From Xanthobacteraceae bacterium (GTDB lineage: Bacteria > Pseudomonadota > Alphaproteobacteria > Rhizobiales > Xanthobacteraceae): a DNA stretch of 64,000 nucleotides. The position numbers were made by a program, and so were the translations under genes. The notes under the pieces are model-generated. The model worked only from the letters and a program-made list of their open reading frames with translations, had not been told where the DNA came from and searched no databases. Below, in pieces: positions 1,880 to 43,663 of the stretch. Numbering within the stretch: position 1 is the stretch's first letter; every line of letters starts with the position of its first letter. The stretch covers positions 1-64,000 of the forward strand of contig JASHQS010000067.1 of the NCBI GenBank assembly GCA_030038995.1, in the 5' to 3' direction.

Positions 1880-1889
1880 GGCCGGCCCG

Positions 1890-3137: not shown

Positions 3138-3147
3138 GACTGAATTC

Positions 3148-4218: not shown

Positions 4219-4221
4219 CGT

Positions 4222-5001
4222 TCACCAGATTTTCCATGGCGCATCGCCGCTTCGCCAAAGCTCCTCGAGGTAGCGTTTGTCGCGCAGCGTGTCCATCGGG
4301 TGCCAGAAACCGGTATGCCGATGCGCCGCGAGCTGGCCCTGCGCGCTGAGCCGTTGCAGCGGCGCCTGCTCGAAGGTCGTATCGTCGCCCTCGATGTAAT
4401 CGATCACTTTCGGCGACAGCACCAGAAAGCCGCCGTTGATCCAGGTGTCGTCGCCCTGCGGCTTCTCCTTGAAGCTGCGGACCACGTCGGCGGCATCGAT
4501 CTCGAGCGCGCCGAAGCGTCCCGGCGGCTGCACCGCCGTGATAGTGGCGAGCAGCCGGTGCGCCTCGTGGAATGCGACGAGCTTTGCGATGTCGATGCGG
4601 GCGACACCGTCGCCATAGGTGAGGCAAAAAGTCTTGTCGCCGATATGATCGCGCACCCGGCGGATGCGTCCCCCGGTCATCGTCGCGTCGCCGGTGTCCA
4701 CCAACGTGACCCGCCACGGCTCGGCGCGACGGTGGTGGACGATCGTGGAATTGTTCGACAGGTCGAACGTCACGTCGCTCATATGCAAATCGTAATTGGC
4801 GAAATATTCTTTGATCATATAGCCCTTGTAGCCAAGGCAGATGATGAAGTCGTGCAAACCGAACGTCGAATAGATTTGCATGATATGCCAAAGGATCGGG
4901 TGGCCGCCGATCTCGACCAAGGGCTTCGGCCGGACCTCGGTTTCTTCGGCCAGCCGGCTGCCGAAGCCGCCTGCCAGGATGACCACCTTGCCGATATCCA
5001 C
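4222..5001 (-). CDS. rfbF: Glucose-1-phosphate cytidylyltransferase
   Basis: [65 protein letters not shown]; characteristic RfbF sequence. Confidence 0.92.
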
Positions 5002-11851: not shown

Positions 11852-11942
11852 CGACAGACGCCATAGCCTTTGTGGCCTATCGACGCGGCGGAAAAGTCCC
11901 TGCTAAAAGGAACGTCCCGGTCGGGTCCATTTGGGAGGTCGC

Positions 11943-12527
11943 GTGAGCCACGCTGCGAAATTCCTCGACGAGGTGTGTGAAACGGCGCGCCGCATCGAGC
12001 CCGACGCCATCGAGGCGCTCTGCGACGAGCTTGCCGGCCTGCGCGAGCGCGAGGGTCGCCTGTTCATCCTTGGCGTTGGCGGCAGCGCCGGCAATTGCAG
12101 CCATGCGGTCAACGACTTTCGCAAGCTGTGCGGCATCGAGGCTTATGCGCCGACCGACAACGTCTCCGAGCTGACGGCGCGGACCAACGACGAAGGCTGG
12201 AGCACGGTGTTCGCGGAATGGCTGAAAGTGAGCCGCGCCGGGTCCAAGGACGCAATCCTGGTGTTTTCCGTCGGCGGCGGCAATCTGGAGAAGAACGTCA
12301 GCGCCAATCTGGTCGCCGCCATCGAGGAGGCCAAAAGCCGCGGCACGCGAATTTTGGGAATTGTCGGACGCGATGGCGGCTATACCAAAAAGTCAGGTGA
12401 CGTAGTCGTCGTCATTCCGGCTGTCGAGCCGTCGCGCATCACGCCACATACCGAGGCGTTCCAGGCCGTCGTCTGGCATTGCCTGGTATCGCACCCGAAA
12501 CTGCAGCACCGTGCCACGAAATGGTGA
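11943..12527 (+). CDS. SIS domain phosphosugar isomerase (GmhA-like)
   Basis: GTG start with upstream GGGAGG; LFILGVGGSAGNCSHAVNDFRKLCGIEAYAPTDNVSELTARTNDEGW. Confidence 0.85.
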   Translation: MSHAAKFLDEVCETARRIEPDAIEALCDELAGLREREGRLFILGVGGSAGNCSHAVNDFRKLCGIEAYAPTDNVSELTARTNDEGWSTVFAEWLKVSRAGSKDAILVFSVGGGNLEKNVSANLVAAIEEAKSRGTRILGIVGRDGGYTKKSGDVVVVIPAVEPSRITPHTEAFQAVVWHCLVSHPKLQHRATKW

Positions 12528-25748: not shown

Positions 25749-26327
25749 CTATTCGTCACCAAGCAGCCCCTTACGGCGCTCGAAATTGGGCTGGTAGCCC
25801 TGATTGTCGCGGAGGACAAATGTTGCGGCTTCAGCGAGGGATTTTGCCACCTTGTCAGGATGGTTGGGCCCGTCTTGGCTGTAGCCGTAATCGATAAAAA
25901 TGGTGCAACAACCGGCGGCGCGGCCTGCTGTGACGTCGCGCCAGCGGTCGCCGACCACGTAGCTACGCGCCAGATCGATGGCGTACGCGGCGGCCGCCGC
26001 GAGAATGAGGCCGGGTTTCGGCTTGCGGCAATCGCAATTCGCCGCATCGTTATGGAAGCACACCCTGATGTCGTCGACCGCCAGCCGTGCCCTTATCACA
26101 TCGTGCATGGCGTCGACGGTGCTCCTTTCGGTCAGGCCGTTGGCCACGTCCGGCTGATTGGTGACGACGATGACGAGGAAGCCGCGCTCTTTCAGCCGCC
26201 GCACGGCATCCTCCACGCCGGGCAGGATGCGGAAATCTTCGAGCGTCCTCGGCGCGACTGGGCGGCCGTCGCGTTCCAGATTGGCGTTGATCACGCCGTC
26301 ACGATCGAGGAAAACAGCGCGGCGCAC
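25749..26327 (-). CDS. gmhB: D-glycero-D-manno-heptose 1,7-bisphosphate phosphatase family (HAD)
   Basis: MRRAVFLDRDGVINANLERDGRPVAPRTLEDFRILPGVEDAVRRLKERGFLVIVVTNQPDVANG; FHNDAANCDCRKPKPGLIL. Confidence 0.88.
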   Translation of the reverse strand: MRRAVFLDRDGVINANLERDGRPVAPRTLEDFRILPGVEDAVRRLKERGFLVIVVTNQPDVANGLTERSTVDAMHDVIRARLAVDDIRVCFHNDAANCDCRKPKPGLILAAAAAYAIDLARSYVVGDRWRDVTAGRAAGCCTIFIDYGYSQDGPNHPDKVAKSLAEAATFVLRDNQGYQPNFERRKGLLGDE

Positions 26328-27656: not shown

Positions 27657-28436
27657 CTAGGCAATAGCAGGCTGCGGCTGCCGCAGCGTGGCGCGCGGAT
27701 TGTCGATCAGGGCGGCGAACACGTGCCGCAACAAATCGGCAAGCGCGACGATGGTGTAGGGGCAGCCGTGGACGGTCCCGGTTTGCAACAAGCCTCGGGC
27801 CGCCAGCGCAGGCGCAAATTGCGGGAAATCGCGGTCGAGCCGCGGATGACGCCGCGTGCGCACCGGATGGACCACGCCGTTGTGGTCGCGGCAATGATAA
27901 AGCTCCGCCTGCTCGGGCGGCCGCACGTAGAGCTCGACGTTGATCACTTCCTCGGGCAGGTGGATCGCCGTGCAGCATTCCAGGCCGACGCCGATCATCA
28001 GCACGTACGCAGCGTAATCGCGCATCAGCCCATACGGGCTGTTGCCGGATACCGGCGTGGTATCGACGTGATGGCGCGACAACAACAGCGGCGCCGCCGG
28101 ACCCCAGCCGGCGACCGAATGCGTCGGATGAATGCTGCGCGCAACCGCGTAACGGGTACGGAAGATTTCCGTCAAAATGCCGGTATGCGACGGCGTCGCC
28201 ATCTCGTCCCAATAGGGATTGTCGGACGTCACGGTTCGCCAGGTCATGGTCGGCATGAAGAGGTTGCCGGCGGCGAGGTGGTCGAGCAGGACTTCGATCA
28301 TCGCTTCGGCGCGAAAACCCTGGCGGCTCAAAATCGCGATGGCACTGTGCACCACCAGCGTGCCGTTCCGGGGCACCGCAAAGCGCTCCAGGATCGGCAG
28401 CAATGCCGCGCTTTCCTTTGATTGGCCGCTCGTCAT
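27657..28436 (-). CDS. AAC(3)-family (aminoglycoside 3-N-acetyltransferase-like) protein
   Basis: MTSGQSKESAALLPILERFAVPRNGTLVVHSAIAILSRQG; FMPTMTWRT, SIHPTHSVAGWGP; ATGA overlap with upstream CatB-like gene. Confidence 0.8.
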   Translation of the reverse strand: MTSGQSKESAALLPILERFAVPRNGTLVVHSAIAILSRQGFRAEAMIEVLLDHLAAGNLFMPTMTWRTVTSDNPYWDEMATPSHTGILTEIFRTRYAVARSIHPTHSVAGWGPAAPLLLSRHHVDTTPVSGNSPYGLMRDYAAYVLMIGVGLECCTAIHLPEEVINVELYVRPPEQAELYHCRDHNGVVHPVRTRRHPRLDRDFPQFAPALAARGLLQTGTVHGCPYTIVALADLLRHVFAALIDNPRATLRQPQPAIA

Positions 28437-29131
28437 CCTGCGGTCGCCCAATCGGCCTTCGCCTTGATCGCCTCGATCATGTCGAGGCAGCGATCGATGT
28501 CGCGAAATGGCAGGCCGCTGAGCTGCGCCAATTCAAGATCCCACCATTTGAGCCGCAGCAGCCGTTCGACCGTCCGCTCCGGGAAGCGAAAGCGCTTGAT
28601 GGTCGCCGGCACGCCGGCCACGATCGCGTAGGGCGGCACGTCCTTGGTGACGACCGAGCCCGCCGCGATGACCGCGCCATCGCCGACGCTCACGCCGGCC
28701 ATGACGTTGACGTTGTGCCCGGTCCAGACGTCGTTGCCGACGGTGACATGCGCGAACATGTCCGGCGTGCGCTCGAGCCGTACGAAGTCGTTATACTCTT
28801 CCACCCAATCGAACGAGTTCGGGTGGTACTGGAATTCGTGGATGCTGAGCCAATCGGACGGATGGTTGAATGGGTTGATCGCGGTGCGGGCGCCGATCGC
28901 GCAAAATGCGCCGATCGTGGCGCGGGCGATGAAGCAGTTTTCATTCATGCCGAAATACTTGCCGGCGACAACGTCGGGGCCGATCTGCGAATTCTTGTTG
29001 AGGAACAATGGGCCGCGGATGGTCGATTTGATGATTCTGGCGCCCGGGTTAAGGCGCATGATGGCGTGCAGATAGACCGGCGTGGTTCCGGCGTTCTCAT
29101 AAAAATCAATTTTGATTTCCGAATATTGCAT
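28433..29131 (-). CDS. CatB-related O-acetyltransferase (hexapeptide repeat)
   Basis: GPLFLNKNSQIGPDVVAGKYFGMNENCFIARATIGAFCAIGARTAINPFNHPSDWLS; GNDVWTGHNVNVMAGVSVGDGAVIAAGSVVTKDVPPYAIVAGVPA. Confidence 0.9.
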   Translation of the reverse strand: MQYSEIKIDFYENAGTTPVYLHAIMRLNPGARIIKSTIRGPLFLNKNSQIGPDVVAGKYFGMNENCFIARATIGAFCAIGARTAINPFNHPSDWLSIHEFQYHPNSFDWVEEYNDFVRLERTPDMFAHVTVGNDVWTGHNVNVMAGVSVGDGAVIAAGSVVTKDVPPYAIVAGVPATIKRFRFPERTVERLLRLKWWDLELAQLSGLPFRDIDRCLDMIEAIKAKADWATAG

Positions 29132-29757
29132 ATGCCGCGGGCAAACGATTTGTCTGCTGTGAAGTCCTCTACCATGGCGGCGGCCTGTTGGGAACGGCTG
29201 GCAGGCGCCGGCTTATATGCTGAGCGCCGGCCCTCTGCAGGATCGCGGTCATTCATCGAGGTCTGTGACAGCCCACCGCCCCTGCTGGCACTGCGGCCCT
29301 CTTGCCGCAGCAATAACCGGAGGATTCGTTTGTTCGAAACAGCACGGCCGCGGCGCTTGGCGGTGGGGCGTTTTCGCGCCAGACCGCCGTGCCGGTGTTG
29401 GCCAGCGCAAACGGGCCACGGCGGGGACGGGCAGATCGCCAATGTAACAGTTCTGACAGAGCCGGCGCAGGGCCCAAATCCAACCCCAGCCAGGCCTTTC
29501 CACAAGGCGCGCTTGTCCGGGTGTCGGGTTGACGGAAAAGGTGAAATGTACCATAGCGTCGGTGGGGACGGCGGCAGAGCCAAGCCGAGAAAATGCGAGG
29601 CGTTTTGCGCTAAAACCCGCCGCAATTTTCGACTGATCCTCGCAGCCGCTGACACGCATCTCTGCTGGTGTGACGTGGCTAGCTTACGCAACAGATGCGG
29701 CCCGCGATGACGACGTGCTTCGGGCCATCCGGCGGGGATGGGGCAAGAGGGGCGGTA

Positions 29758-30513
29758 ATGGAGCGGCTGAAGCAGCTACGCGTCAAGTTGTTCGCTGACG
29801 GTGCCGATTTCGACACTATCGTGGCGCTGGCCGCCAATCCGATCATCCGCGGCTTTACCACCAATCCGACTCTGGCGCGCAATGCGGGCGTGCGGGATTA
29901 TGAGGATTTCGGACGCAAGGTGCTCGCCGCCGTGCCCGATCGCCCGGTGTCGCTGGAAGTTTTCGCCGACGACTTTGCCGCAATGGCGCGCCAAGCACGC
30001 GTGCTTGCGAGTTGGGGCAAAAACGTCAACGTCAAGATACCGGTCACCAATACCCACAGAGAGTTTTCCGGCGATCTCATCCGGCGCCTGTCCGCCGAAG
30101 GCATCGTCGTCAATGTCACCGCCATCACCACGGTGGACCAGGTGCGGCGTGTGGCGGAAAATCTCTATCCCGACGCGCCGGCGATCGTGTCCGTGTTCGC
30201 CGGACGGATTGCCGATACCGGAGTAGATCCGGTGCCGATGATGGCGGCGGCGGCGCAAGTGCTGCGGCAACGCCCAAAGGCGGAACTGCTATGGGCCAGC
30301 CCTCGCGAGCTTCTCAACGTGTTCCACGCCGACGCGGCCGGCTGCCACATCATTACCGCCACCAAGGATATCCTGGCGAAGCTCAGCCTGGTCGGCAAGG
30401 ATTTGGACGAGTATTCGCTCGAGACGGTCAAGATGTTTCGGCGCGATGCAGTTGCCGCCGGTTTCGAGATCGGGGATCCGGTTGAGGACTCGAGCGTGCG
30501 CGCCGTGGCCTGA
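29758..30513 (+). CDS. Transaldolase-family protein (short form)
   Basis: MERLKQLRVKLFADGADFDTIVALAANPIIRGFTTNPTLARNAGVRDYEDFGRKVL; VNVKIPVTNTHREFSGDLIRRLSAEGIVVNVTAITT. Confidence 0.88.
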   Translation: MERLKQLRVKLFADGADFDTIVALAANPIIRGFTTNPTLARNAGVRDYEDFGRKVLAAVPDRPVSLEVFADDFAAMARQARVLASWGKNVNVKIPVTNTHREFSGDLIRRLSAEGIVVNVTAITTVDQVRRVAENLYPDAPAIVSVFAGRIADTGVDPVPMMAAAAQVLRQRPKAELLWASPRELLNVFHADAAGCHIITATKDILAKLSLVGKDLDEYSLETVKMFRRDAVAAGFEIGDPVEDSSVRAVA

Positions 30514-30660: not shown

Positions 30661-31662
30661 ATGACGATAACGAACGTCTTGATCACCGGAGGGGCGGGCT
30701 ATGTCGGGCACGTTTTGACGCCGCGGCTGTTGTCCGCCGGCTACACCGTCACGGTCTATGATGCGTTGTTTTTCGGCTGCCGTTTGCCCAACGACCTCAA
30801 GCTTCGGGTGATCAGGGGCGATATCCGCGATACTGCCAAGCTTGCCGAGGCGCTGGTGGGCCAGGATGCGGTCCTGCACCTGGCGTGCATTTCCAACGAC
30901 GCCAGCTTCGAGCTTGACGAGAAGCTTTCGCAGACCATCAATTACGACTGCTTCGAGCCGATGGTGATCGCGGCAAAGAAAGCCGGCGTGCAGCGCTTCG
31001 TCTATTGCTCATCGAGCTCCGTGTACGGCGTCTCGGACTCGCCGGACGTGACGGAAGAGCACCCGCTGGTGCCGCTGACGCTGTACAACAAGTTCAAGGG
31101 CCTGTGCGAACCCATATTGTGGAAGCACAAGGCCGACGACTTCACCTGTGTCGTGGTGCGGCCGGCGACGATCTGCGGTTACAGCCCGCGCACGCGGCTC
31201 GACTTGTCGGTCAACATTCTGACCAATCACGCGGTGAACAAGGGCGTCATCACCGTGTTCGGCGGCAATCAGATGCGCCCAAACCTGCACGTCGCGGACA
31301 TGGTGGATGCCTATCAGCTGATGCTGGAGGGGCCGCATGACAAAATCCACGGCGAGATTTTCAACATCGGCTTTCAGAATTATTCGATCGCCGAGATCGC
31401 CGGCATGGTCAAGAGCGTGGTCGAGGAAGAGATGCCGGAAAAGGGCGATATCAAGATCACCACGACGCCGACCAATGACATGCGCTCCTATCACGTCAAT
31501 TCCGACAAGGTGAAGCGCGTGCTCGGCTTTGCGCCGAAGCGCAGCGTCGAAGACGCCATCCGCGACCTGACGCGCGCGTTCCGCAATTATCTCTTGCCGG
31601 ACAGCTTCGACGATGACTGCTACTATAACGTCCGGACCATGAAGAAGCTCGGAGTGCAATGA
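30661..31662 (+). CDS. NAD-dependent epimerase/dehydratase (extended SDR)
   Basis: NVLITGGAGYVGHVLTPRLL; SSSSVYG; YNKFK (YxxxK). Confidence 0.88.
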   Translation: MTITNVLITGGAGYVGHVLTPRLLSAGYTVTVYDALFFGCRLPNDLKLRVIRGDIRDTAKLAEALVGQDAVLHLACISNDASFELDEKLSQTINYDCFEPMVIAAKKAGVQRFVYCSSSSVYGVSDSPDVTEEHPLVPLTLYNKFKGLCEPILWKHKADDFTCVVVRPATICGYSPRTRLDLSVNILTNHAVNKGVITVFGGNQMRPNLHVADMVDAYQLMLEGPHDKIHGEIFNIGFQNYSIAEIAGMVKSVVEEEMPEKGDIKITTTPTNDMRSYHVNSDKVKRVLGFAPKRSVEDAIRDLTRAFRNYLLPDSFDDDCYYNVRTMKKLGVQ

Positions 31663-32660
31663 GCGTGGCGCGGCACGTCGCGGTCGTCACCGGCGGCGCC
31701 GGGTTCATCGGCAGCCACATGGTGGATCATCTCATCGAGCGCGGCTGCCGGGTGCGGGTCATCGACAACCTGCGCGGCGGCCGGCTCGCCAATCTCGCCC
31801 AGCACCGCGGCAATCCGGACTTGGCGTTCGAAGAGGCCGATATCCGCGACCTGGAGCCGGGCGACGCGGTGTTCGCCGGCGCCGCTTACGTGTTCCATTT
31901 CGCCGGCATCGGCGACATCGTGCCGTCGATCGAGCAGCCTATCGAATACATGGACACCAACGTGCAGGGCACCGTCCGCGTTCTGGAATGCGCCCGCCAC
32001 GCGGCGGCGCGCAAGTTCGTCTACGCGGCCTCGTCTTCTTGTTATGGCATCGCTGCGGTGCCGACGGCCGAGCAGAACCCGATCGCGCCGCAATATCCGT
32101 ATGCCTTGTCCAAATATCAGGGCGAGCAGGCGGCGTTCCATTGGCACCGCGTGTATCGGCTGCCGGTCAATTCGATCCGTATCTTCAACGCCTACGGCAC
32201 GCGCGTGCGCACCACCGGCGCCTACGGCGCGGTGTTCGGCGTGTTCTTCAAGCAGAAGCTCGCCGGCAAGCCGTTCACCGTGGTCGGCGACGGCACGCAG
32301 AAGCGCGACTTTCTCTATGCGACCGACGTGGCATCCGCCTTTCTGCTGGCGGCCGAAACCAAAAAGTCGGGCGAAGTCTGGAACCTGGGCGCCGGCAATC
32401 CGCAATCGGTCAATCGGCTGGTGGAATTAATCGGCGGCCCGGTTGTTCATATCCCGAAACGGCCGGGCGAACCGGACGTGACCTGGGCGGATATCTCCAA
32501 GATCAAGCGCGATCTCGGCTGGCAGCCGCGGGTCGGCTTCGCGGAAGGAGTCGGCGCGATGATGCGGGAGATCGACAACTGGCGCGACGCGCCGCTGTGG
32601 GACCCGGATTCGATCAAACAAGCCACCCGAACCTGGTTCGAGGCGCTCGCTGCGGAGTGA
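31659..32660 (+). CDS. NAD-dependent epimerase/dehydratase (UDP-glucose 4-epimerase-like SDR)
   Basis: AVVTGGAGFIGSHMVDHLIERGCRVRVIDNL; SSSCYG; YALSK; ATGA overlap with preceding gene. Confidence 0.9.
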   Translation: MSVARHVAVVTGGAGFIGSHMVDHLIERGCRVRVIDNLRGGRLANLAQHRGNPDLAFEEADIRDLEPGDAVFAGAAYVFHFAGIGDIVPSIEQPIEYMDTNVQGTVRVLECARHAAARKFVYAASSSCYGIAAVPTAEQNPIAPQYPYALSKYQGEQAAFHWHRVYRLPVNSIRIFNAYGTRVRTTGAYGAVFGVFFKQKLAGKPFTVVGDGTQKRDFLYATDVASAFLLAAETKKSGEVWNLGAGNPQSVNRLVELIGGPVVHIPKRPGEPDVTWADISKIKRDLGWQPRVGFAEGVGAMMREIDNWRDAPLWDPDSIKQATRTWFEALAAE

Positions 32661-32663
32661 CCG

Positions 32664-34214
32664 ATGGAAACGCGCCTGGGCGGCGACTACCGTCGCAAGA
32701 TCAAGAGCGTCGACGAGCTTTGCTCGGTGCTTGGCCCGCGGCCGCGGCAGCGCACCGTGGTGATGTGCCACGGCGTGTTTGATCTGGTGCATCCGGGCCA
32801 TATCCGGCACTTGGTGTATGCCAAGGAGAAAGCCGGTATCCTGATCGCGAGCCTGACCGCCGACGCCCACATCACCAAAGCCAATTACCGGCCGTTCGTG
32901 CCGGAAGATCTGCGGGCGCTCAATCTCGCGGCGCTCGAGATGGTCGATTACGTCATCATCGACACCAATCCCACGCCGATCGAAAACATCGCGCGCCTGC
33001 AACCCGATTATTTCGCCAAGGGCTACGAGTATCAGGACGGCGGCATCAATCCCAAGACCCGGCAGGAGATCGAGGCGCTGTCGAGCTACGGCGGCGAGAT
33101 TCTGTTCACGCCGGGCGACATCGTCTACTCCTCGTCGCACCTGATCGAGACCGGGCCGCCGGACATCGCCGTGGAAAAGCTCTTGGCGCTGATGGAGGCG
33201 GAGGGGCTCGATTTCGATCACTTGCGCCGCATCCTCGATCGGTTCGATGGATTGGAAGTGCACGTCGTCGGCGACACCATCGTCGACAGCCTCACCTACA
33301 CGACGATGATCGGCGGCATGGGTAAAACGCCGACGCCGAGCGTGCGCTTCGACAGCCGCGCCGACTACGTCGGCGGCGCGGCGGTTGTCGCCAAGCACCT
33401 GCGCGCCGCCGGCGCCGAGGTTGCCTTGTCAACCGTGCTCGGCGACGACGCTTTGAAGGATTTCGTGCTGGAGAATTTGGCGTTGGCCGGCGTCAAGGTG
33501 ACGCCGATCGTCGATCACGCCCGGCCGACCACCCACAAGAACGCCTACGTGTGCGACGATTATCGGCTGCTCAAGGTCGACACGCTCGACAACCGCAGCA
33601 TCACCGATGTGCAGATGGAGCAGATTGCCGGCAACGTGGCGCGGGCGCCCGGGCGCGCGGTCGTGTTCAGCGATTTCCGTCACGGCATTTTCAACCGCCG
33701 CACGATTCCCGGCCTGACCGGCGCGATTCCACGCGGCGCGTTTCGCGTTGCCGACAGCCAGGTGGCGAGCCGCTGGGGCAATGTCCTCGAGTTCAAGGGT
33801 TTTGATCTGCTCACCCCCAACGAGCGGGAGGCGCGCTTCGCGTTGGCCGACCAGGATACCGGCGTGCGTCCGCTGGCCGCCAAGCTGCACGAGGACGCGC
33901 AGTGCAAGACCGTCATCCTCAAGCTCGGCGATCGCGGCGTGCTGACCTGCCGCGCCGGACGGGAGCGCGATCCGCGCACGTTTTTCGTCATCGACAGTTT
34001 CGCCGAACGCGTAGCAGATGCGGTCGGCGCCGGCGACGCGCTGCTCGCCTATGCGACGCTCTCGTTCCTGGTCGATCCATCGGAAGTCGCGGCCTCCGTG
34101 CTCGGCTCGCTTGCCGCCGCGCTCGAATGCGAGGCCGAAGGCAACGTTCCGATCGGGCCGGAAGACGTGCTGCGCAAGCTCCTCGGCCTCGAAAAACGTG
34201 CCCGATTCGTCTAG
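32664..34214 (+). CDS. HldE-like bifunctional protein in reversed order: N-terminal nucleotidyltransferase, C-terminal PfkB-family kinase
   Basis: VVMCHGVFDLVHPGHIRHLVYAKEKA (HxGH), then GLEVHVVGDTIVDSLTYT...YVGGAAVVAKHLRAAGAEVALSTVLGDD...DAVGAGDALLAYA. Confidence 0.87.
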   Translation: METRLGGDYRRKIKSVDELCSVLGPRPRQRTVVMCHGVFDLVHPGHIRHLVYAKEKAGILIASLTADAHITKANYRPFVPEDLRALNLAALEMVDYVIIDTNPTPIENIARLQPDYFAKGYEYQDGGINPKTRQEIEALSSYGGEILFTPGDIVYSSSHLIETGPPDIAVEKLLALMEAEGLDFDHLRRILDRFDGLEVHVVGDTIVDSLTYTTMIGGMGKTPTPSVRFDSRADYVGGAAVVAKHLRAAGAEVALSTVLGDDALKDFVLENLALAGVKVTPIVDHARPTTHKNAYVCDDYRLLKVDTLDNRSITDVQMEQIAGNVARAPGRAVVFSDFRHGIFNRRTIPGLTGAIPRGAFRVADSQVASRWGNVLEFKGFDLLTPNEREARFALADQDTGVRPLAAKLHEDAQCKTVILKLGDRGVLTCRAGRERDPRTFFVIDSFAERVADAVGAGDALLAYATLSFLVDPSEVAASVLGSLAAALECEAEGNVPIGPEDVLRKLLGLEKRARFV

Positions 34215-34231: not shown

Positions 34232-35164
34232 ATGCGCGTCGTCGTCGCCGGCCTTGGTGTGCAGGGACACAAGCGCCGGCGGGTGGCGGGCGCCGATTTC
34301 GTCGCCGCGGCCGATCCGGTCAATAGCGAAGCGCAATACCGCCGCATCGAAGACGTGCCGCTCGAAAGCTACGACGCGGTGCTGGCCTGCATTCCCGACG
34401 AGCCGAAGGTGGCGCTGCTCGATTACCTGTTGCGCAACGGCAAGCACGTCCTGGTCGAAAAGCCGTTGTGGGCCGCCGACGACGCCGACATCGTGCGGCT
34501 CGGGGTGCTGGCGAAGAAGAGCAGCGCGGTCTGCTACACCGCCTATAATCACCGCTTCGAGCCGCACTTCGTGCGCATGCGCGACGTCATCAAGTCGGGC
34601 CGGCTCGGCGCCATCTATCGCTGCCGCATGTTCTACGGCAACGGCACGGCGCGCCTCGTTCGCGATTCAGAATGGCGCGATCAGGGCGCGGGCGTGCTGC
34701 CCGATCTCGGCTCGCATCTGCTCGACACCGCGCGCTTCTGGTTCGGAGATATCGGCGACGATTTCTCGATTCTATCCAGCCGCTGTTTCGAGAACCGCGC
34801 GCCCGACCATGTCGTGCTCGGCTCGCGCGGCTCGACCCCGCAGCTCGAGCTGGAGATGACGTTGCTGAGCTGGCGTAATCACTTCACCTGCGACGTCTTT
34901 GGCGAGAACGGTTCGGCCCACATCAGATCGCTGTGCAAGTGGGGACCGTCCTCGTTCACGCTGCGCTCGCGCGTCCTGCCGAGCGGCCGCCCACCCGAGG
35001 AGACCGTCACGCTGGTGCAGGACGACCCGACCTGGGCGATCGAGTACGAGCACTTCAGGCGGCTGTGCGCCGAGCGCCGTGTCGGCGATCTGGCCGACGA
35101 TCTCTGGCTCAACGGCACGCTGCGGCGGTTGAGCGACGGCGCGATCAAGGAGCTTAAGGCATGA
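34232..35164 (+). CDS. Gfo/Idh/MocA-family oxidoreductase
   Basis: MRVVVAGLGVQGHKRRRVAGADFVAAADP; GKHVLVEKPLWA; YNHRFEPHFVRMRDVIKSGRLGAIYRCRMFYGNG; internal ATG chosen. Confidence 0.88.
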   Translation: MRVVVAGLGVQGHKRRRVAGADFVAAADPVNSEAQYRRIEDVPLESYDAVLACIPDEPKVALLDYLLRNGKHVLVEKPLWAADDADIVRLGVLAKKSSAVCYTAYNHRFEPHFVRMRDVIKSGRLGAIYRCRMFYGNGTARLVRDSEWRDQGAGVLPDLGSHLLDTARFWFGDIGDDFSILSSRCFENRAPDHVVLGSRGSTPQLELEMTLLSWRNHFTCDVFGENGSAHIRSLCKWGPSSFTLRSRVLPSGRPPEETVTLVQDDPTWAIEYEHFRRLCAERRVGDLADDLWLNGTLRRLSDGAIKELKA

Positions 35165-36453
35165 CCTCGCCCACGGTCGGATTTGCCGGCCTTACGCACC
35201 TCGGTCTGGTATCGGCCGTCGCCGTGGCTGCCAAAGGACTGCGCGTGATCGGGTACGACCCGGATCAAGACCGCGTCCGCGACGTCGCCGAGGGGCGCCT
35301 GCCGGTCCTGGAGCCCACCCTTGACGATCTGGCGCGCCGGTTCCGTGCGCAGCTCGCCTATACCGACCGCGTCGGCGATTTGGCCGCTTGCGACCTCGTT
35401 TACATCGCCAGCGATGTTCCGACCGACGACCGCGGGCAGAGCGATCTTTCCGGCATCGCGTCGCTGATCGAAGCCGTTATTGCGGTGCTCGGCCCGAGCA
35501 CGCTTTTGTGCGTGCTCTGCCAGGTGCCGCCCGGCTTCACCCGCAAAGTGCCGCTCGACCCGGCGCGGCTCTATTATCAGGTCGAGACGCTGGTGTTCGG
35601 CCGCGCCGTCGAACGCGCCCTCAAGCCTGAGCGCTTCATTGTCGGTTGCGCCGACCCGGGGCGGCCGTTGCCGGCCGCCTATGCGGCGGTGCTCGGCGCC
35701 TTCGGTTGCCCCATCCTGCCGATGCGCTATGAAAGCGCCGAGCTCGCCAAGATCGCCATCAATTGTTGTCTGGTTGCGTCGGTCAGCATCGCCAACACGC
35801 TCGCCGATCTGGCCGAGCGCATCGGCGCCGATTGGCACGAGATCGCGCCGGCGCTGCGGCTTGACCGGCGCATCGGCCCGCATAGCTATCTCAATCCCGG
35901 ATTGGGCATTGCTGGCGGCAATCTCGAACGCGATCTCGCAACCGTGCTGCGGCTATCCGCGGCCGCTGGAAGCGAAGCCGCGGTGATCGCTGCCTTCGTC
36001 GAGAACAGCCGCGTCCGACGCGATTGGGTGTTGCGGCTCATTCATCGGGAGGTGCTGCCGCGCAATGCGGCTCCGACGTTCGGCGTTTTGGGCTTGGCCT
36101 ACAAGGAAAACACCCATTCCACCAAGAACTCGCCGGCGCTGGCGCTGATCGCCAATCTGCAGGCTTGGCCGATCCGCATTTACGATCCGGCGGTGCCGGC
36201 CGACGCGGTGAACCATCGGGCGCTTCATGCGGCGCCCAGCGCGCTCGAAGCGGCGCGTGGCAGCGACGCACTCTTGATCATGACCCCGTGGCCGGAATTT
36301 CGCGCGCTTTCGCCCGCCGATCTGGCCGCCGTCATGAGCGGACGCGTGATCGTCGATCCGTTCCGCGTGCTCGATCCAGCGGCTCTGCGCGCCGCGGGCT
36401 TCTCCTATTTTACGCTCGGTGCGCCGCCGCTTCACGACGCCGAGGAAGTTTGA
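35161..36453 (+). CDS. UDP-glucose/GDP-mannose dehydrogenase-family protein lacking the canonical catalytic Cys
   Basis: TVGFAGLTHLGLVSAVAVAAKGLRVIGYDPD; ESAELAKIAINCCLVASVSIANTLADLAERIG; GVLGLAYKENTHSTKNSPAL; motif SYLNPGLGIAGGNLERDL. Confidence 0.87.
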   Translation: MTSPTVGFAGLTHLGLVSAVAVAAKGLRVIGYDPDQDRVRDVAEGRLPVLEPTLDDLARRFRAQLAYTDRVGDLAACDLVYIASDVPTDDRGQSDLSGIASLIEAVIAVLGPSTLLCVLCQVPPGFTRKVPLDPARLYYQVETLVFGRAVERALKPERFIVGCADPGRPLPAAYAAVLGAFGCPILPMRYESAELAKIAINCCLVASVSIANTLADLAERIGADWHEIAPALRLDRRIGPHSYLNPGLGIAGGNLERDLATVLRLSAAAGSEAAVIAAFVENSRVRRDWVLRLIHREVLPRNAAPTFGVLGLAYKENTHSTKNSPALALIANLQAWPIRIYDPAVPADAVNHRALHAAPSALEAARGSDALLIMTPWPEFRALSPADLAAVMSGRVIVDPFRVLDPAALRAAGFSYFTLGAPPLHDAEEV

Positions 36454-36455
36454 GC

Positions 36456-37337
36456 ATGATCGAGCATCAAACGCATTCGTCGCAGCGACCGGCCCGCGCG
36501 GTCGTCATTGGCGCCGGCGGCTTTGTCGGCGGCGCGATCGTGCAACGGCTGCAAAACGAAAACGTGCCGGTGCTCGGCCTGACGCGGCGGGAGGTCGACC
36601 TCCTGCAGGAGGGTGCGGCCAAAAAGCTGGCCGGACTTTTGCACGCCGATGACGCCGTCGCTTTCGTCGCCGCCCTGGCGCCGGCGCGCCATGCGGCAGC
36701 GCTGATGCAGAACCTCGTCATGGCCGAGCAACTCATCGCCGCTCTGTCGGTGCAGCCGGTCGCGCATCTCGTCTATATCAGCTCGGACGCGGTCTATGCC
36801 GATGCCGCCAATCCTGTGACCGAGCGTTCATGCCGCCAGCCTTCCACGATGCACGGCATGATGCACGCGGCGCGCGAATTGATGCTCAAGGCCGAGGCGA
36901 AGGCGCCGCTCGCCGTCCTGCGGCCGAGCTTGCTCTACGGCGCGCGCGATCCGCACAACGGCTATGGCCCCAACCGCTTTCGCCGCCTCGCCGCAAAGGG
37001 CGAGCCGATCACGCTGTTCGGCGATGGCGAAGAGCAGCGCGATCATGTTGATGTCGACGACGTCGCCCGGCTCACGTCGCTGGTCCTGGCGCACCGCAGC
37101 CGCGGCGAGCTCAACGTCGCGACGGGAACCTCCATTTCGTTCCGCGAGGTGGCCGAGTTGGTGGTGAAATTGACCGGCAGGCCGGTCGAGATCCGCGGCA
37201 CGCTGCGGCAGAATCCGATCACGCACCGGCATTTCGACATCACCGAATGCCTCAAGGCTTTCCCGCAGTTCCGCTACACGCCGCTGCGCGACGGTCTTGC
37301 ACGCGCCGTTCGTGAATCGGCAGGAGCACCGCAATGA
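36456..37337 (+). CDS. NAD-dependent epimerase/dehydratase-like SDR with atypical active site
   Basis: AVVIGAGGFVGGAIVQRL, VYISSDAVYAD, VLRPSLLYGARDPHNGYGPNRF; HxxxH (HGMMH) at the YxxxK position. Confidence 0.85.
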   Translation: MIEHQTHSSQRPARAVVIGAGGFVGGAIVQRLQNENVPVLGLTRREVDLLQEGAAKKLAGLLHADDAVAFVAALAPARHAAALMQNLVMAEQLIAALSVQPVAHLVYISSDAVYADAANPVTERSCRQPSTMHGMMHAARELMLKAEAKAPLAVLRPSLLYGARDPHNGYGPNRFRRLAAKGEPITLFGDGEEQRDHVDVDDVARLTSLVLAHRSRGELNVATGTSISFREVAELVVKLTGRPVEIRGTLRQNPITHRHFDITECLKAFPQFRYTPLRDGLARAVRESAGAPQ

Positions 37338-37990
37338 GAGAAGTGAACCTGCTGGCGAAACTACCGCGCGGCAAACGCAACGTTGGCGCACGCGCCGAAG
37401 CCAAGACCGCACGGATCATCGCCATTTCGCGCGAATATGGCGAACCCTACTTCGATGGTCCGCGCACCTACGGCTACGGCGGTTACCGCTACGACGGCCG
37501 TTGGATTCCGGTCGCCGAAGACATGGTCGGGCATTTCGGGCTCAAGCCGGGCGACCGCATTCTCGACGTGGGCTGCGCCAAGGGTTTTTTGGTCAAGGAC
37601 TTGCTCAAAGTCTGTCCGGGCCTTGAAGCTTTCGGCCTCGATATATCCGAGTACGCTTTGATGAAATGCGAGCCCGAGGTGGTCGGCCGCCTGCATCTGG
37701 GCAACGCCACCAAGCTGCCGTTCCCCGACAACAGTTTTCAGGCCGTGATCTCGCTCAATACGGTCCACAACCTGGAGCGTTCCGAATTGATTACGGCATT
37801 GCGCGAAATCGAGCGCGTGGCTCCGGGCCGCGGCTTCGTGCAGGTCGATTCCTACCGCACCCCCGAGCAGAAGGCCTTGTTCGAGGAATGGGTCTTGACC
37901 GCCAAGTTCCACGACTACCCGCAGGGCTGGATCAGGCTGTTCGAGGAGGCCGGCTATACGGGCGATTATTACTGGACCATCATCGAGTAA
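37334..37990 (+). CDS. Class I SAM-dependent methyltransferase
   Basis: GDRILDVGCAKGFLVKDLLKVCPGLEAFGLDISEYALMKC; LPFPDNSFQAVISLNTVHNL; ATGA overlap with preceding gene. Confidence 0.88.
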   Translation: MREVNLLAKLPRGKRNVGARAEAKTARIIAISREYGEPYFDGPRTYGYGGYRYDGRWIPVAEDMVGHFGLKPGDRILDVGCAKGFLVKDLLKVCPGLEAFGLDISEYALMKCEPEVVGRLHLGNATKLPFPDNSFQAVISLNTVHNLERSELITALREIERVAPGRGFVQVDSYRTPEQKALFEEWVLTAKFHDYPQGWIRLFEEAGYTGDYYWTIIE

Positions 37991-38043: not shown

Positions 38044-38889
38044 ATGCATGACATGAGCCGCCGCAACTTCTTCGACGTCGCGGCTGCGCGGTCTCGCTGC
38101 TTGCAATATCGCAAGCGCATCCTGGACATTTCCCAAAATGTGCAGGCGCTGCACATCGGCTCGGCCTATTCGTGCACTGAAATCGTCGACACCATCTATC
38201 ACGGCCTGATGCGCCGCGGTCCGGACGGCACCTCGCCCGACACCTTCCTGATGTCGAAGGGCCACGGCTGCATGATCCTCTACGTGATCCTGGAAGATCT
38301 CGGCGTGCTCGGCCGCGAGGACCTCGACCTCTACTGCAAGCCGAACGGCCGGCTCGGCTGCCACCCCGACTACGGCAATCCGGGCATCGAAGCCTCGACC
38401 GGGGCGCTCGGTCACGGCCTTTCCATGTCGGTCGGCATGGCGCTTGCCGAGCGCGGCCGCAAGACCGGCGGCATCATCTACACCGTGCTGAGCGACGGCG
38501 AGGTGCAGGAGGGCTCGACCTGGGAGGCTCTGCTCATGGCGTCCTCGCTCGGCCTATCCAATCTCGTCGCCTTCGTGGACAACAACGATTTCCAGAGTCT
38601 CGGCCGCACCTCGGAGACGCACCCGACGTTCTATCCGCTGGTGGAAAAATTCCAGGCGTTTGGCTGGGAAACCGTCGAAGTCGACGGCCATGATGCCGCC
38701 GCGGTGTTTGCCGCCGTGAGCGGGCGTCAAGGCGGGCGGCCCTTCATGCTGGTCGGCAAGACCACCAAGGGCAAAGGCATCAGCTACATGGAGAACGTGC
38801 CGATCTGGCATTATCGCTCGCCGAGCCCGAAGGAGTACGAGCAGGGCAGGCGGGAATTGGAGGCCGCGGCGGCCACGGCGGTGTCATGA
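38044..38889 (+). CDS. Transketolase, N-terminal (TPP-binding) subunit
   Basis: LMSKGHGCMILYVILEDLGVL, GSTGALGHGLSMSVGMALAERGR-type motif, SDGEVQEGSTWEALLMASSLGLSNLVAFVDNNDFQ. Confidence 0.92.
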   Translation: MHDMSRRNFFDVAAARSRCLQYRKRILDISQNVQALHIGSAYSCTEIVDTIYHGLMRRGPDGTSPDTFLMSKGHGCMILYVILEDLGVLGREDLDLYCKPNGRLGCHPDYGNPGIEASTGALGHGLSMSVGMALAERGRKTGGIIYTVLSDGEVQEGSTWEALLMASSLGLSNLVAFVDNNDFQSLGRTSETHPTFYPLVEKFQAFGWETVEVDGHDAAAVFAAVSGRQGGRPFMLVGKTTKGKGISYMENVPIWHYRSPSPKEYEQGRRELEAAAATAVS

Positions 38890-39803
38890 GAAACACGTTT
38901 TCGGAGGCGCTGTACAAGGCGGCCACCGCCAATCCGGACATCTACATCGTCGTTGCCGACATTTCGCCGGCCGGCAGCATGGCCAAGTTCCGCGACCAAT
39001 ATCCGGATCGCTTCATCAATGTCGGCGTCGCCGAGCAGAGCATGATCGGCATCTGCGCCGGACTCGCGCTCAAGGGCTGCCAGCCGTTCGCCTACACCAT
39101 CGCCACGTTCTCGCTGTACCGGCCGTTCGAAATGGTGCGCGACGACCTGTGCTATCAAAATCTGCCGGTGACGGTGGTCGGCATGGGCGCCGGCGTGATC
39201 TATTCGACGCTCGGCGGCACGCATCACACCCAGGAGGACATCGCCATCGCCGGGGCGCTGCCCAACATGCAGATCATCGCACCGTGCGATCCCGCCGAGT
39301 GTACCGAGGCGACCGCCTATTGCGCGATGCAAAAGAACGGGCCGGTCTATCTGCGGCTCGGCAAGGCCGGCGAGCCCAACTTCACCGACAAGGCGGTCGA
39401 TCCGTGGATGTTCGGCAAGCTGCGCTACATCAAGCGTGGCACCGACGTCTGCATCCTGACCTACGGCGTCATCATGGCCAAGGCGATGCAGCTTGCCGCG
39501 CGGTTCGAGGCCAAAGGACGATCGGTGTCGGTCGTGTCCTGCCATACCTTGAAGCCGCTCGACGTCGACGGCATCCGCGACGCGTTGCGGCGGCACAATC
39601 ACGTCGTCGCCGTCGAGGAGCATGCCCCGCAGGGCGGCCTGGCGCCGCGCATCAAACAAATCGCCTGGGACATGCAGGCGCGTTGCCGGCTGGACACGTT
39701 CACACTGCAGGACGCGTTCATCCACAATTACGGCAGCCACGACGATTTGTTGGCGGCGCACGGCCTGGAAGTCGGCGCCATCGCGGCTCAGGTTGGCGCC
39801 TGA
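38886..39803 (+). CDS. Transketolase, C-terminal subunit
   Basis: RNTFSEALYKAATANPDIYIVVADISPAGSMAKFRDQYPDRFINVGVAEQSMIGICAGLALKG; overlaps preceding subunit by 4 bp. Confidence 0.92.
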   Translation: MRNTFSEALYKAATANPDIYIVVADISPAGSMAKFRDQYPDRFINVGVAEQSMIGICAGLALKGCQPFAYTIATFSLYRPFEMVRDDLCYQNLPVTVVGMGAGVIYSTLGGTHHTQEDIAIAGALPNMQIIAPCDPAECTEATAYCAMQKNGPVYLRLGKAGEPNFTDKAVDPWMFGKLRYIKRGTDVCILTYGVIMAKAMQLAARFEAKGRSVSVVSCHTLKPLDVDGIRDALRRHNHVVAVEEHAPQGGLAPRIKQIAWDMQARCRLDTFTLQDAFIHNYGSHDDLLAAHGLEVGAIAAQVGA

Positions 39804-41080
39804 TGAACCAGAACGTTCCGCGCAGCGCCGCCAGCAAAGCCGAGCCGGCCGAGCCAGCGCCGCCGCGGCCGGCGCCCAATGCCGCGCTTGCCATTCACGG
39901 CGGCGAGCCGGTGCGCAAGACGCCGATGCCGCCGCGGCTGGCGCTGGGCGACGCCGAGCGCCAGATGGTCCTTGCGGTGCTCGACTATTACCGCGAGCGC
40001 AACGTCGATCCCGGTTACGAGGGCCATTTCGAGCAGATGTATTGCCGCGCCTTTGCCGAGATGATGGGCGGCGGCTATGCCGACGCCGTCGCCACCGGCA
40101 CCTCGTCGCTCTATGTCGCGGTGGCGGCGCTCGACCTGCCCAAGGGCAGCGAGGTGCTGGTGTCGCCGATCACCGATCCCGGCAGCCTGGCGGCGATCGT
40201 GCTCAATGGGCTCAAGCCGCGTCTGATGGACTCAAAGCCGGGCAGCTACAATGTCGGGCCGCAACAATTCGCCGAGCGCATTACGCCGGATGTCAGCGCG
40301 GTCATGGTGGTGCACGCCGCCGGCCAGGCGGCCGAGATCGACAAGGTCGTCGAGATCGCGCATGGGCGCGGCATCAAGGTCATCGAGGATTGCGCGCAGG
40401 CCCACGGCGCGCTGCTGCGCGCCAAGCGCGTCGGCAGCTTCGGCGACATCGCGGCGTTTTCGACCATGTACCGGAAGGCCCACATGACCGGGCCGTCGGG
40501 CGGCGTGGTCTTCACCAAGGACCTCGAAGTGCATCGCCGCGCCGTGGCCCATGCCGACCGCGGCAAGCCGCGCTGGCGCGACGATTTCAGCGACCGCGAT
40601 CCCTCGACTTATCTGTTTCCGGCGCTCAACCACAACACCGACGAAATCTCCTGCGCCATCGGGCTCGCCTCGCTCGCGCGCCTGCGCGGCACGATCATCG
40701 GCCGGCTCGCCTTCGTGTCGGATTTCGTCGCCCGCCTGGTCGACGCCTCCGACGTCTGCACGCCGTATCCGTTCTCGCCGACCGATTCGCCGTTCTTCTA
40801 CCCGGTCATGGTCGATTGCGACGCCATCACCTGCAGCAAGATCGAGTTTGCCGAGGCGGTCCGCGCCGAGGGCATCGACCTCAACCCGCATTACCGCTTC
40901 GTGGTGTCGGACTGGCCGTATATCCGGCCATACCTCGCCGACGATTTCGCCGCGCCGAACGCACACGACGTGTGCGATCGCTCGTTCAATCTTTATCTCA
41001 ACGAACGTTACGGCGAGCGCGAGGCGCGCGACGCCGTCAAGGCGATCGTCAAGGTCGAAAAGCATTTTCGCAAGTATTGA
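39803..41080 (+). CDS. DegT/DnrJ/EryC1/StrS-family PLP aminotransferase
   Basis: Internal ATG at 39803; VATGTSSLYVAVAALDLPKGSEVLVSPITDPGS; VIEDCAQAHGALLRAKRVGSFGDIAAFSTMYRKAHMTGPSGGVVFT. Confidence 0.9.
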   Translation: MNQNVPRSAASKAEPAEPAPPRPAPNAALAIHGGEPVRKTPMPPRLALGDAERQMVLAVLDYYRERNVDPGYEGHFEQMYCRAFAEMMGGGYADAVATGTSSLYVAVAALDLPKGSEVLVSPITDPGSLAAIVLNGLKPRLMDSKPGSYNVGPQQFAERITPDVSAVMVVHAAGQAAEIDKVVEIAHGRGIKVIEDCAQAHGALLRAKRVGSFGDIAAFSTMYRKAHMTGPSGGVVFTKDLEVHRRAVAHADRGKPRWRDDFSDRDPSTYLFPALNHNTDEISCAIGLASLARLRGTIIGRLAFVSDFVARLVDASDVCTPYPFSPTDSPFFYPVMVDCDAITCSKIEFAEAVRAEGIDLNPHYRFVVSDWPYIRPYLADDFAAPNAHDVCDRSFNLYLNERYGEREARDAVKAIVKVEKHFRKY

Positions 41081-41476: not shown

Positions 41477-43663
41477 ATGGCGACGAACGGTTCTTTCGAT
41501 GGCTGGCGCAATCATTTTCAGGATGATTGGGTCGACCCGGATTCCAGCAACAGCTCGCCGCCCAACGACGGCGGCAGCCCATTGCCCGGTGACGGTAACG
41601 ACGTCGACACGCCCTCGCCAGGCAACTTTGCCAGCGAGTCAGGAGGCCCCGGACTCTTCGCCTCTCTCTATGGGTGGGGCCTGGCGCCGGCGAATGACAG
41701 CGGCGTATGGCTCGGCGACCCTGGCCTCCTCAATCAGGCACCCACGCCGGTGAGTTCCGCATCGAGCGCCGCCACGCCCGAAACGCCGACCAACAGCGAA
41801 TCGACTAACTGGTCAGGAGGCGTCATAACGGCCGCCCCGGGCGAAAGTTTCAGCACCGTCTCGGCCCAGTGGGTGATCCCGACCATCGCGCAGGTGCCGA
41901 TCAACGGTGTCACGACCTCGGATATCGCCGAGTGGGTCGGCATCGACGGTTACCAATCCTCGGACGTGTGTCAGGCCGGCGTTTACGAGGAAGCGCAGAC
42001 ATCCAACGGTCAGACTACGCTCAGTTGCGAGGCATGGGTGGAATGGTATCCGGCCGATGCCGAGTTTATCCCTCTTTCGTCCTTCGACGTAAACCCAGGC
42101 AACACGATATCAGTCACGGTCGAAACGAGTGGCGCTGGGGCGACCGAAGCTACCTTCATCTTCGACGACGAAACAACCGGCCAGACCTACGAAACCACCT
42201 TGACGGCCCCAACTGGCACCAGCCTGCAGGGCAATAGCGCCGAGGCTATCGTTGAAACGCCTGAATTGATCAGCGGCAACGGCCAGGTGTCGCAACCGCT
42301 CCTGGCCGACTTCCTCAACTCGCCTGTCACGTTCGACGATGTCAGCGCGACCTATTCCAACGGCTCGGCGGCCAGCCTCTCATCAGCCCAATCGATCGAC
42401 CTGGAGACGAAAGACGTCCCGGGCATCAGTGGATACGTTCAGGAAGCCTACGGCAGCATCCAGCCGGCGTCCGATTCAGTCACGGTGACCGAGAATCAGT
42501 ACTGGCCCACCCCCCCGACCACGGCCGAAATGATCATGACCGATACGTCGGGCAATTATTACATCTACGACATCGGCAACAATTCGCTCCAGGGATCAAA
42601 TCTGCTGGAGAATTTAGGAACCGGCTACACGTTCGGCGGCATCGGCAATTTCGGCGGCGACAGCGGCGACATGATGCTGCGCGCCTCCAATGGCGATGTC
42701 TACGTCTACGACATCAGCAATAACCAGATCACCGGGACGCATGACCTGGGCAACGTGGGAACGAACTGGACAATTGCCGGTTTTGGCGACTTCAGCGGCA
42801 ATCCCGGCGAAACCGATATGATCATGCAGCAAAGCAGCGGCAATCTGGAGGTCTACGACATCAGCAACAATGAGGTAACCTTCGCCACCTCGCTCGGCAA
42901 TTTCGGCTCAAATACGGTTGCCGGCTTCGGTGACTTCAGCGGCAATGCCGGCGAAACCGACATGATGATGCGCAGCTCGACGGGCGACCTCCTGGTCTAT
43001 GACATGGGCAAGAATTCCGTCACCAGTGGGCCCATCGATCTCGGCAATGTCGGCTTGAATTGGGTGGTGTACGGGTTCGGCGACTTCAGCAGCAATGCCA
43101 ATGAAACCGACCTGATCATGCGCAACACGAGTAACGGCGATTTCGAGCTTTACGACATCAGCGACAATCGCGTCGTCAGCGCCGAGGCGCTCGGCAATGT
43201 CGGTCTGGAATGGACACTTGCCGGCTTCGGTGATTTCAGCGGCAATCCCGGCGAAACCGACATGCTGTTGCGCGACAGCAACAATGGCGATTTCGAGATC
43301 TATGATTTTGCCAACAATCAAATATACAATGCCGCATCGATCGGTGAGGTCACGCAGAGCTACACCGTCGCTGGAACGGGACCCGATGTGTCCGGCAGCG
43401 ACACCATGTTGTCGACCTCGCTGGGTGCCGCCGTGGCATCGGCGTCGATGTCGGCCGACGGGGGTATGGCCGGCTTCGAATTCACAAACGCCGGGCAAAG
43501 CCCGCAATCGTTCGGATCAACGAACGGTCTCTCCGAAATCGTGGCGCCGATGAGCAGCTTGTTCTCCGCGCCGGCGCCGATGGCTGAGTTTTCCTCGACG
43601 CTCTCAGAGCCGAGCACAGCGGCGACGGTTCTTGCGGCCGATACTCTTCAGCATACGGTGTGA
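41477..43663 (+). CDS. G1-family (eqolisin-like) glutamic peptidase domain fused to a beta-propeller-like repeat domain
   Basis: TNWSGGVITAAPGESFSTVSAQWVIPTI...AEWVGIDGYQSSDVCQAGVYEE...EAWVEWYPADAEF...NSAEAIVETPEL; six or more C-terminal DxxMRxxxGDxxVYDISNN...GFGDFSGNPGET repeats. Confidence 0.78.
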   Translation: MATNGSFDGWRNHFQDDWVDPDSSNSSPPNDGGSPLPGDGNDVDTPSPGNFASESGGPGLFASLYGWGLAPANDSGVWLGDPGLLNQAPTPVSSASSAATPETPTNSESTNWSGGVITAAPGESFSTVSAQWVIPTIAQVPINGVTTSDIAEWVGIDGYQSSDVCQAGVYEEAQTSNGQTTLSCEAWVEWYPADAEFIPLSSFDVNPGNTISVTVETSGAGATEATFIFDDETTGQTYETTLTAPTGTSLQGNSAEAIVETPELISGNGQVSQPLLADFLNSPVTFDDVSATYSNGSAASLSSAQSIDLETKDVPGISGYVQEAYGSIQPASDSVTVTENQYWPTPPTTAEMIMTDTSGNYYIYDIGNNSLQGSNLLENLGTGYTFGGIGNFGGDSGDMMLRASNGDVYVYDISNNQITGTHDLGNVGTNWTIAGFGDFSGNPGETDMIMQQSSGNLEVYDISNNEVTFATSLGNFGSNTVAGFGDFSGNAGETDMMMRSSTGDLLVYDMGKNSVTSGPIDLGNVGLNWVVYGFGDFSSNANETDLIMRNTSNGDFELYDISDNRVVSAEALGNVGLEWTLAGFGDFSGNPGETDMLLRDSNNGDFEIYDFANNQIYNAASIGEVTQSYTVAGTGPDVSGSDTMLSTSLGAAVASASMSADGGMAGFEFTNAGQSPQSFGSTNGLSEIVAPMSSLFSAPAPMAEFSSTLSEPSTAATVLAADTLQHTV
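42524..43417 (+). repeat. Six full tandem repeats (about 48-50 aa each) plus a partial seventh in the peptidase C-terminus
   Basis: Repeats read by eye: DMMLRASNGDVYVYDISNNQITGTHDLGNVGTNWTIAGFGDFSGNPGET and variants. Confidence 0.85.

Follow-up and report, generated by a model that had tools for sequence, protein, structure and literature searches.

A UDP-glucose dehydrogenase homolog lacking the catalytic cysteine, found in an HldE-type cassette that resembles the lincosamide octose pathway

What reaction is left to a protein of the UDP-glucose dehydrogenase (UGDH) family when its catalytic cysteine has become an asparagine? The question is raised by one gene in the window, the whole 64,000-nucleotide stretch of Xanthobacteraceae DNA analyzed here:

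35161..36453, + strand: Cys-less nucleotide-sugar dehydrogenase, LmbL/CcbL-like (PF03721/PF00984/PF03720; TIGR03026; AlphaFold2 model; PDB fold match)
35920..35922, + strand: AAT codon of Asn254, at the catalytic Cys position (phmmer alignment; Asn in 80/80 orthologs)

The open reading frame starts with ATG and encodes 430 amino acids. All three UDPG/MGDP dehydrogenase domains score above the Pfam cut-off, as does the protein against TIGR03026 (199 bits, cut-off 189.8). The AlphaFold2 model has a pLDDT of 94 and its best PDB fold matches are UDP-glucose dehydrogenases (TM 0.87 with 4a7p), in agreement with the first-pass annotation of this DNA, which had claimed that the NAD fold is kept. Its central observation also held: phmmer places YLNPGLGIAGGNLERD gap-free against the GGSCFPKD motif of 4a7p, 3gg2, 3vtf, and 2y0e, with the catalytic Cys becoming Asn254, the next Lys becoming Arg257, and Asp258 unchanged.

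Relatives of all kinds numbered 238 in the contigs of 84,980 species, and the best 80 of these, each examined, were taken as the ortholog set. Asn254, Gln121, Glu142, Lys197, Asn201, Arg257, and Asp258 are present in 80/80 of these best-scoring relatives, and two ordinary Cys-type enzymes (GGSCLPKD) are encoded elsewhere in the same genome as the Asn254 protein; chance or sequencing error is thereby excluded. Asn254 is thus a class-wide trait and not a private mutation. The 80 proteins are spread over Alpha-, Beta-, Gamma-, and Deltaproteobacteria, Magnetococcales, Nitrospirae, and Acidobacteria. Most are from metagenome-assembled genomes (MAGs), but isolates are represented too (Bradyrhizobium, Azospirillum, Methylocystis, Nisaea, and Sulfidibacter), and Methylocystis silviterrae, Azospirillum griseum, and Nisaea denitrificans are among the cultured carriers. 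Three MAGs labeled Bordetella parapertussis (L034, L035, and L036) carry the surrounding cassette as well; these names are probably misassignments.

Within the order, 10 of 398 genomes gave a match at E 1e-60 or better, and all ten lay at 1e-143 or better, leaving a clean gap; an even sample of the phylum contained the Asn-type in 5/349 genomes, the window's own included. Nine genomes looked at singly all encode an Asn-type protein; eight of them, together with the window's own genome, also encode separate, far lower-scoring UGDH paralogs. No Asn-type member was found in the plasmid collection, where the matches from Rhodococcus opacus and Streptomyces NBC_01207 are both Cys-type. In a careful tree built with the trait columns removed and L136 left out, the Asn-type proteins and those with Thr at the Cys position form one side of a branch (support 96/87). 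A single origin of the Cys-less types is therefore likely from these sequences, but not proven, since several branches in the tree are long.

The replaced cysteine is not the only difference from canonical enzymes. In the UGDH mechanism, an Asp280-bound water initiates the first oxidation, the thiohemiacetal/thioester is borne by Cys276, and Thr131 follows the active water (PMC3184952). Beyond the replacement first noted, the class as a whole shows two more: Gln121 stands for Thr131 and His13 for Tyr10. In a census of 60 aligned proteins (20 Cys-less and 40 Cys-type; human or BceC numbering), the Cys276 position is Asn or Thr in 20/20 Cys-less and Cys in 40/40 Cys-type proteins, the Thr131 position is Gln in 20/20 and Thr in 40/40, and the Tyr10 position, mapped using the 2y0d Y10K sequence, is His in 20/20 and Tyr in 39/40. 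We take Tyr10 to have a role in thioester hydrolysis. It is the residue mutated in 2y0c/2y0d, whose PDB titles refer to the 'final step of UGDs reaction'. Glu142, Lys197, Asn201, Arg237, Asp258, and Lys315 are present in 60/60; Lys197, Asn201, Asp258, and Glu142 are the equivalents of Lys220, Asn224, Asp280, and Glu161, and Arg237 presumably corresponds to the cross-dimer Arg260. Compared with UDP-glucose 6-dehydrogenases (UgdG 4a7p, BceC 2y0e, human UGDH), the window's enzyme thus shares the three-domain fold and the first-step residues, but its catalytic Cys, Thr131, and Tyr10 are replaced and its identity is about 25%.

As Cys, Thr131, and Tyr10 are lost while the hydride-abstraction residues (Lys, Asn, Asp, and Glu) are invariant, the second half-reaction of UGDH looks to have been removed and the first retained, and a two-electron dehydrogenase is the best reading of the sequence. 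The earlier proposal of a two-electron oxidation or an epimerization is supported to this extent. Lys197, Asn201, Asp258, and Glu142 would perform the first UGDH half-reaction, with a proton passing to the Asp-bound water and the hydride to NAD+, and the thioester half would be gone with the Cys-to-Asn, Thr131-to-Gln, and Tyr10-to-His replacements. Human UGDH with bound UDP-4-keto-xylose (9dh0) might seem to show that this fold can oxidize a secondary alcohol; we rejected it as a precedent, because ArnA of E. coli makes that ligand, which was carried along in the purification.

No Asn-type member has, to our knowledge, a known activity or product. A candidate substrate is suggested by the surrounding genes:

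11931..12527, + strand: GmhA-like SIS isomerase, LmbN role, start uncertain (PF13580; gmhA 52.5 bits, cut-off 209)
25749..26327, - strand: GmhB-like HAD phosphatase, LmbK role (Pfam HAD; NF006506 129 bits, cut-off 178)
27657..28451, - strand: AAC(3)-family N-acetyltransferase, possible DegT partner (PF02522)
29755..30513, + strand: small transaldolase, LmbR role, start codon uncertain (TIGR02134 327.7 bits, cut-off 281.95)
30661..31662, + strand: SDR1, NAD-dependent epimerase/dehydratase (PF01370)
31659..32660, + strand: SDR2, NAD-dependent epimerase/dehydratase (PF01370)
32664..34214, + strand: fused nucleotidyltransferase-PfkB kinase, HldE-like with reversed domain order (PF01467 then PF00294)
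34232..35164, + strand: Gfo/Idh/MocA oxidoreductase, LmbZ-like (PF22725/PF01408)
36456..37337, + strand: SDR3 (PF01370; 38/38 long-flank loci)
37334..37990, + strand: SAM methyltransferase (PF08241; 36/38 long-flank loci)
38044..38889, + strand: transketolase N-terminal subunit (PF00456; 24/38 long-flank loci)
38886..39803, + strand: transketolase C-terminal subunit (PF02779/PF02780; 23/38 long-flank loci)
39803..41080, + strand: DegT-type aminotransferase, possibly in the LmbS role, optional member (PF01041; 11/38 long-flank loci)

The order in the cassette is GmhA-like, GmhB-like, transaldolase, SDR1, SDR2, fused nucleotidyltransferase-kinase, Gfo/Idh, dehydrogenase, SDR3, methyltransferase, and often a split transketolase. 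The Gfo/Idh stop overlaps the dehydrogenase start (ATGA, 35161-35164). The GmhA-like gene adjoins the cassette in most relatives; in the window, it and the GmhB-like gene lie apart from the core but within the same polysaccharide region. Among the 52 loci with at least 9 kb of upstream sequence, Gfo/Idh and the HldE-like fusion occur in all, SDR2 in 50, SDR1 in 49, the transaldolase in 43, GmhB in 39, and GmhA in 38. Catalytic positions are conserved too: transaldolase Lys94 in 52/52 loci, Gfo/Idh Lys77 in 74/75 and His162 in 75/75, and the Tyr and Lys of YxxxK in every locus covered there (57/57 for SDR1, 60/60 for SDR2). Within 1.5 kb, 18/21 Cys-less genes have a Gfo/Idh gene and 18/21 an HldE-like gene; at the sensitivity used, none of the 57 Cys-type UGDH loci has a Gfo, HldE, transaldolase, GmhA, GmhB, or transketolase gene within that distance. 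The constant Gfo/Idh partner fits a scheme in which a carbon is oxidized and then re-reduced or transaminated.

Several other genes of the region were recorded. An AAC(3)-family gene also lies near the cassette in L025, L029, L030, L033, L083, and L084, and a radical SAM protein with a SPASM domain (26378-27484, - strand) is likewise found near it in several relatives; a second radical SAM protein of the polysaccharide region is encoded at 47818-49689 (+ strand). Directly behind the sugar cassette is a 728-amino-acid protein that combines a Peptidase_A4 domain with GDFSGNPGETDM-type repeats at its C-terminus (41477-43663, + strand). A separate sugar cassette at 462-5001 (- strand) comprises an NTP_transferase, an SDR, a C-methyltransferase with a zinc-binding domain, and another SDR, and an 1127-amino-acid autotransporter with a PATR repeat (52517-55900, + strand) coincides with a local shift in GC skew.

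In lincomycin and celesticetin biosynthesis, the nucleotide-octose is made by the LmbR transaldolase, LmbN isomerase, LmbP kinase, LmbK phosphatase, and LmbO nucleotidyltransferase together with LmbM, LmbL, and LmbZ (PMC4351081; PMC12945683), and LmbL is reported to be 63% identical to CcbL (PMC4351081). Judged from gene content, the cassette matches these steps role for role. The first-pass annotation had asked whether LmbL-type proteins share the substitution, and we searched Actinomycetota and Streptomyces-like genomes for this link. One Actinomycetota genome carries an Asn-type protein within the same HldE-type cassette; another, and a Rhizobium jaguaris plasmid, carry Thr-type proteins (GGTLxRD) in cassettes with Lmb-like genes. 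One genome of the Streptomyces sample, a presumed Streptomyces judging by its SsgA copies and size, encodes a Thr-type protein (GSTLQRD, SQVPAG) in a cluster ordered K, L, M, N, Z ... P, O, S, R ... T, V, followed by a chorismate-binding enzyme that would fit salicylate synthesis. The tail of the cluster's Gfo/Idh looks like a carrier domain, a feature described for CcbZ; Pfam did not report this domain at the threshold used. This cluster (L159, L183, and L184 of genome G869, the source of our CcbL-, CcbZ-, and CcbR-type sequences) matches celesticetin-type clusters and is identified by gene content only.

The CcbL counterpart does share the loss. Like the window's enzyme, it has the UDPG/MGDP dehydrogenase fold without the Cys, with Arg for Lys, Gln for Thr131, and His for Tyr10, and is encoded with transaldolase, GmhA-like, GmhB-like, SDR, and Gfo/Idh genes, the likeness to LmbL/CcbL being drawn from this counterpart alone. 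It differs in having Thr at the Cys position instead of Asn. The pathways differ as well: the celesticetin-type cluster has a GHMP kinase and an NTP_transferase and leads to an antibiotic, whereas the window has, in place of an LmbP/LmbO-type pair, an HldE-like fusion within a surface-polysaccharide region, so that the kinase and nucleotidyltransferase steps are not homologous between the two. The transaldolases also differ, the window's being of the TIGR02134 type and those of the Streptomyces-type and other actinobacterial cassettes nearer the FSA type, which suggests that one and the same step has been filled by different transaldolases.

Our preferred reading, which we consider probable, is that the enzyme carries out an NAD-dependent two-electron oxidation of a nucleotide-activated higher sugar to a ketone, most likely at the secondary hydroxyl on C6 of an NDP-octose, and forms no uronic acid. 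The sequences show directly the fold, the residues, their conservation, the cassette, and the relation to CcbL; the substrate, its carbon number, the oxidized position, the nucleotide, and the final product are inferred from them. Assembly of the sugar would follow the lincomycin route: the transaldolase would give octulose 8-phosphate, the GmhA-like isomerase would convert it to octose 8-phosphate, the kinase domain of the fusion would add the 1-phosphate, the GmhB-like phosphatase would take off the 8-phosphate, and the nucleotidyltransferase domain would activate the octose, ADP being predicted from the HldE-type domain. The SDRs, the Cys-less dehydrogenase, and the coupled Gfo/Idh might then epimerize or tailor the NDP-octose. 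In the window, the keto carbon could receive an amino group through the DegT aminotransferase and then an acetyl group through the N-acetyltransferase, and the product would enter a surface polysaccharide.

Other sugars or outcomes have to be weighed, as a heptose substrate, or a primary alcohol taken only to the aldehyde, would give the same sequence signature. If the two-electron reading is correct, we hold an octose to be the better bet, because there is a dedicated transaldolase, the GmhA-, GmhB-, and HldE-like proteins miss their equivalog cut-offs by far, and the genome encodes a canonical HldE kinase at another locus. That the same chemistry acts on an NDP-heptose made from sedoheptulose 7-phosphate, with transaldolase and transketolase merely supplying this precursor, appears unlikely but deserves a hearing. 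GmhA, GmhB, and HldE homologs are heptose enzymes by ancestry, and the cassette shares the isomerase, kinase, nucleotidyltransferase, and phosphatase of the ADP-heptose pathway, but with a reversed HldE domain order and an additional transaldolase, Gfo/Idh, and Cys-less dehydrogenase. Its enzymes stay far below the heptose cut-offs (HldE 131 of 521 bits, GmhA 52.5 of 209, GmhB 129 of 178), and the canonical HldE kinase domain scores 373 bits against 115 for the cassette's fusion. The transaldolase, a hallmark of the lincomycin octose route, occurs in 43/52 long-upstream loci; its absence from the stretch covered in the other 9/52 counts against an octose. Also in favor of a heptose is the related bradyrhizose locus, which has HldE-like, GmhA-like, and transketolase genes yet no transaldolase. 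This O-antigen locus, published as 11 genes in photosynthetic Bradyrhizobium (PMC4743980) and located here using the published gdh primer, encodes an HldE-like protein matching the window's across both domains (about 32%), an SDR1 homolog (43%), a GmhA-like protein, a split transketolase, and a methyltransferase. No transaldolase, Gfo/Idh, or UGDH-like gene was found in the 20 kb stretches examined, and we therefore rejected the idea that the window's cassette is itself a bradyrhizose locus. The copies in L199-L202 (Bradyrhizobium G1379, G1240, G1225, and G1164) look like a sister pathway without transaldolase or Cys-less dehydrogenase.

An oxidation of a primary alcohol that stops at the aldehyde, which transketolase or a reductase would then use, agrees with the action of UGDH on a primary alcohol, with the retained first-step residues, and with the split transketolase downstream in 24/38 long-flank loci. 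Transketolase was not seen in the other 14/38, nor by homology in the celesticetin-type stretch, and we regard this outcome as quite improbable. A four-electron UGDH using another nucleophile, and still yielding a uronic acid, is very improbable. The fold and many residues are retained, and many members have Cys203 and Cys120, the latter in the mobile Ser130/Thr131 loop, but no column of a 45-member alignment holds an invariant Cys: Cys77, Cys183, and Cys203 come close to invariance, but two Thr-type relatives have Tyr or Phe at position 203. No other cysteine consistently takes over the catalytic place. Thr131 and Tyr10 are lost as well, and lincosamide, the known end point of a CcbL-type pathway, carries no carboxylate. 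Slighter still is the chance of a dead paralog with a binding or regulatory role, which the missing nucleophile might suggest; Lys197, Asn201, Asp258, and Glu142 are invariant among the best 80 of the 238 relatives, and a conserved oxidoreductase partner accompanies the gene.

A UGDH relative with a role in octose biosynthesis is already known (LmbL), and as the CcbL counterpart also lacks the Cys, a dehydrogenase of this sort without the Cys is of a known kind. The new part, apparently undescribed, is the widespread HldE-type version in surface-polysaccharide loci. In the open-licence papers searched, we found no description of the Asn-type, its HldE-type cassette, its spread, or the coordinated loss, and literature on octoses and O-antigens gave only branched octoses and general papers.

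The finding provides a rule that can be tested: in a UGDH fold adapted to two-electron oxidation, the nucleophile and the two residues tied to the active water and thioester hydrolysis go together and the hydride-transfer set remains. Cys-less proteins are labeled UDP-glucose dehydrogenases by automatic annotation, which would lead one to expect uronic acids in surface glycans that have none. It is possible, at somewhat less than an even chance, that the HldE-type lincosamide-like pathway, with its predicted ADP-octose and its UGDH free of the thioester step, is ancient and widespread across Proteobacteria, Nitrospirae, Acidobacteria, and some Actinomycetota, that it furnishes these bacteria with an undescribed surface sugar of eight carbons, and that the antibiotic pathway is one offshoot. 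If the octose proves true, lincomycin-type octose chemistry would serve many environmental bacteria in making a surface sugar, and these cassettes could be mined for enzymes and might be where the antibiotic pathway came from.
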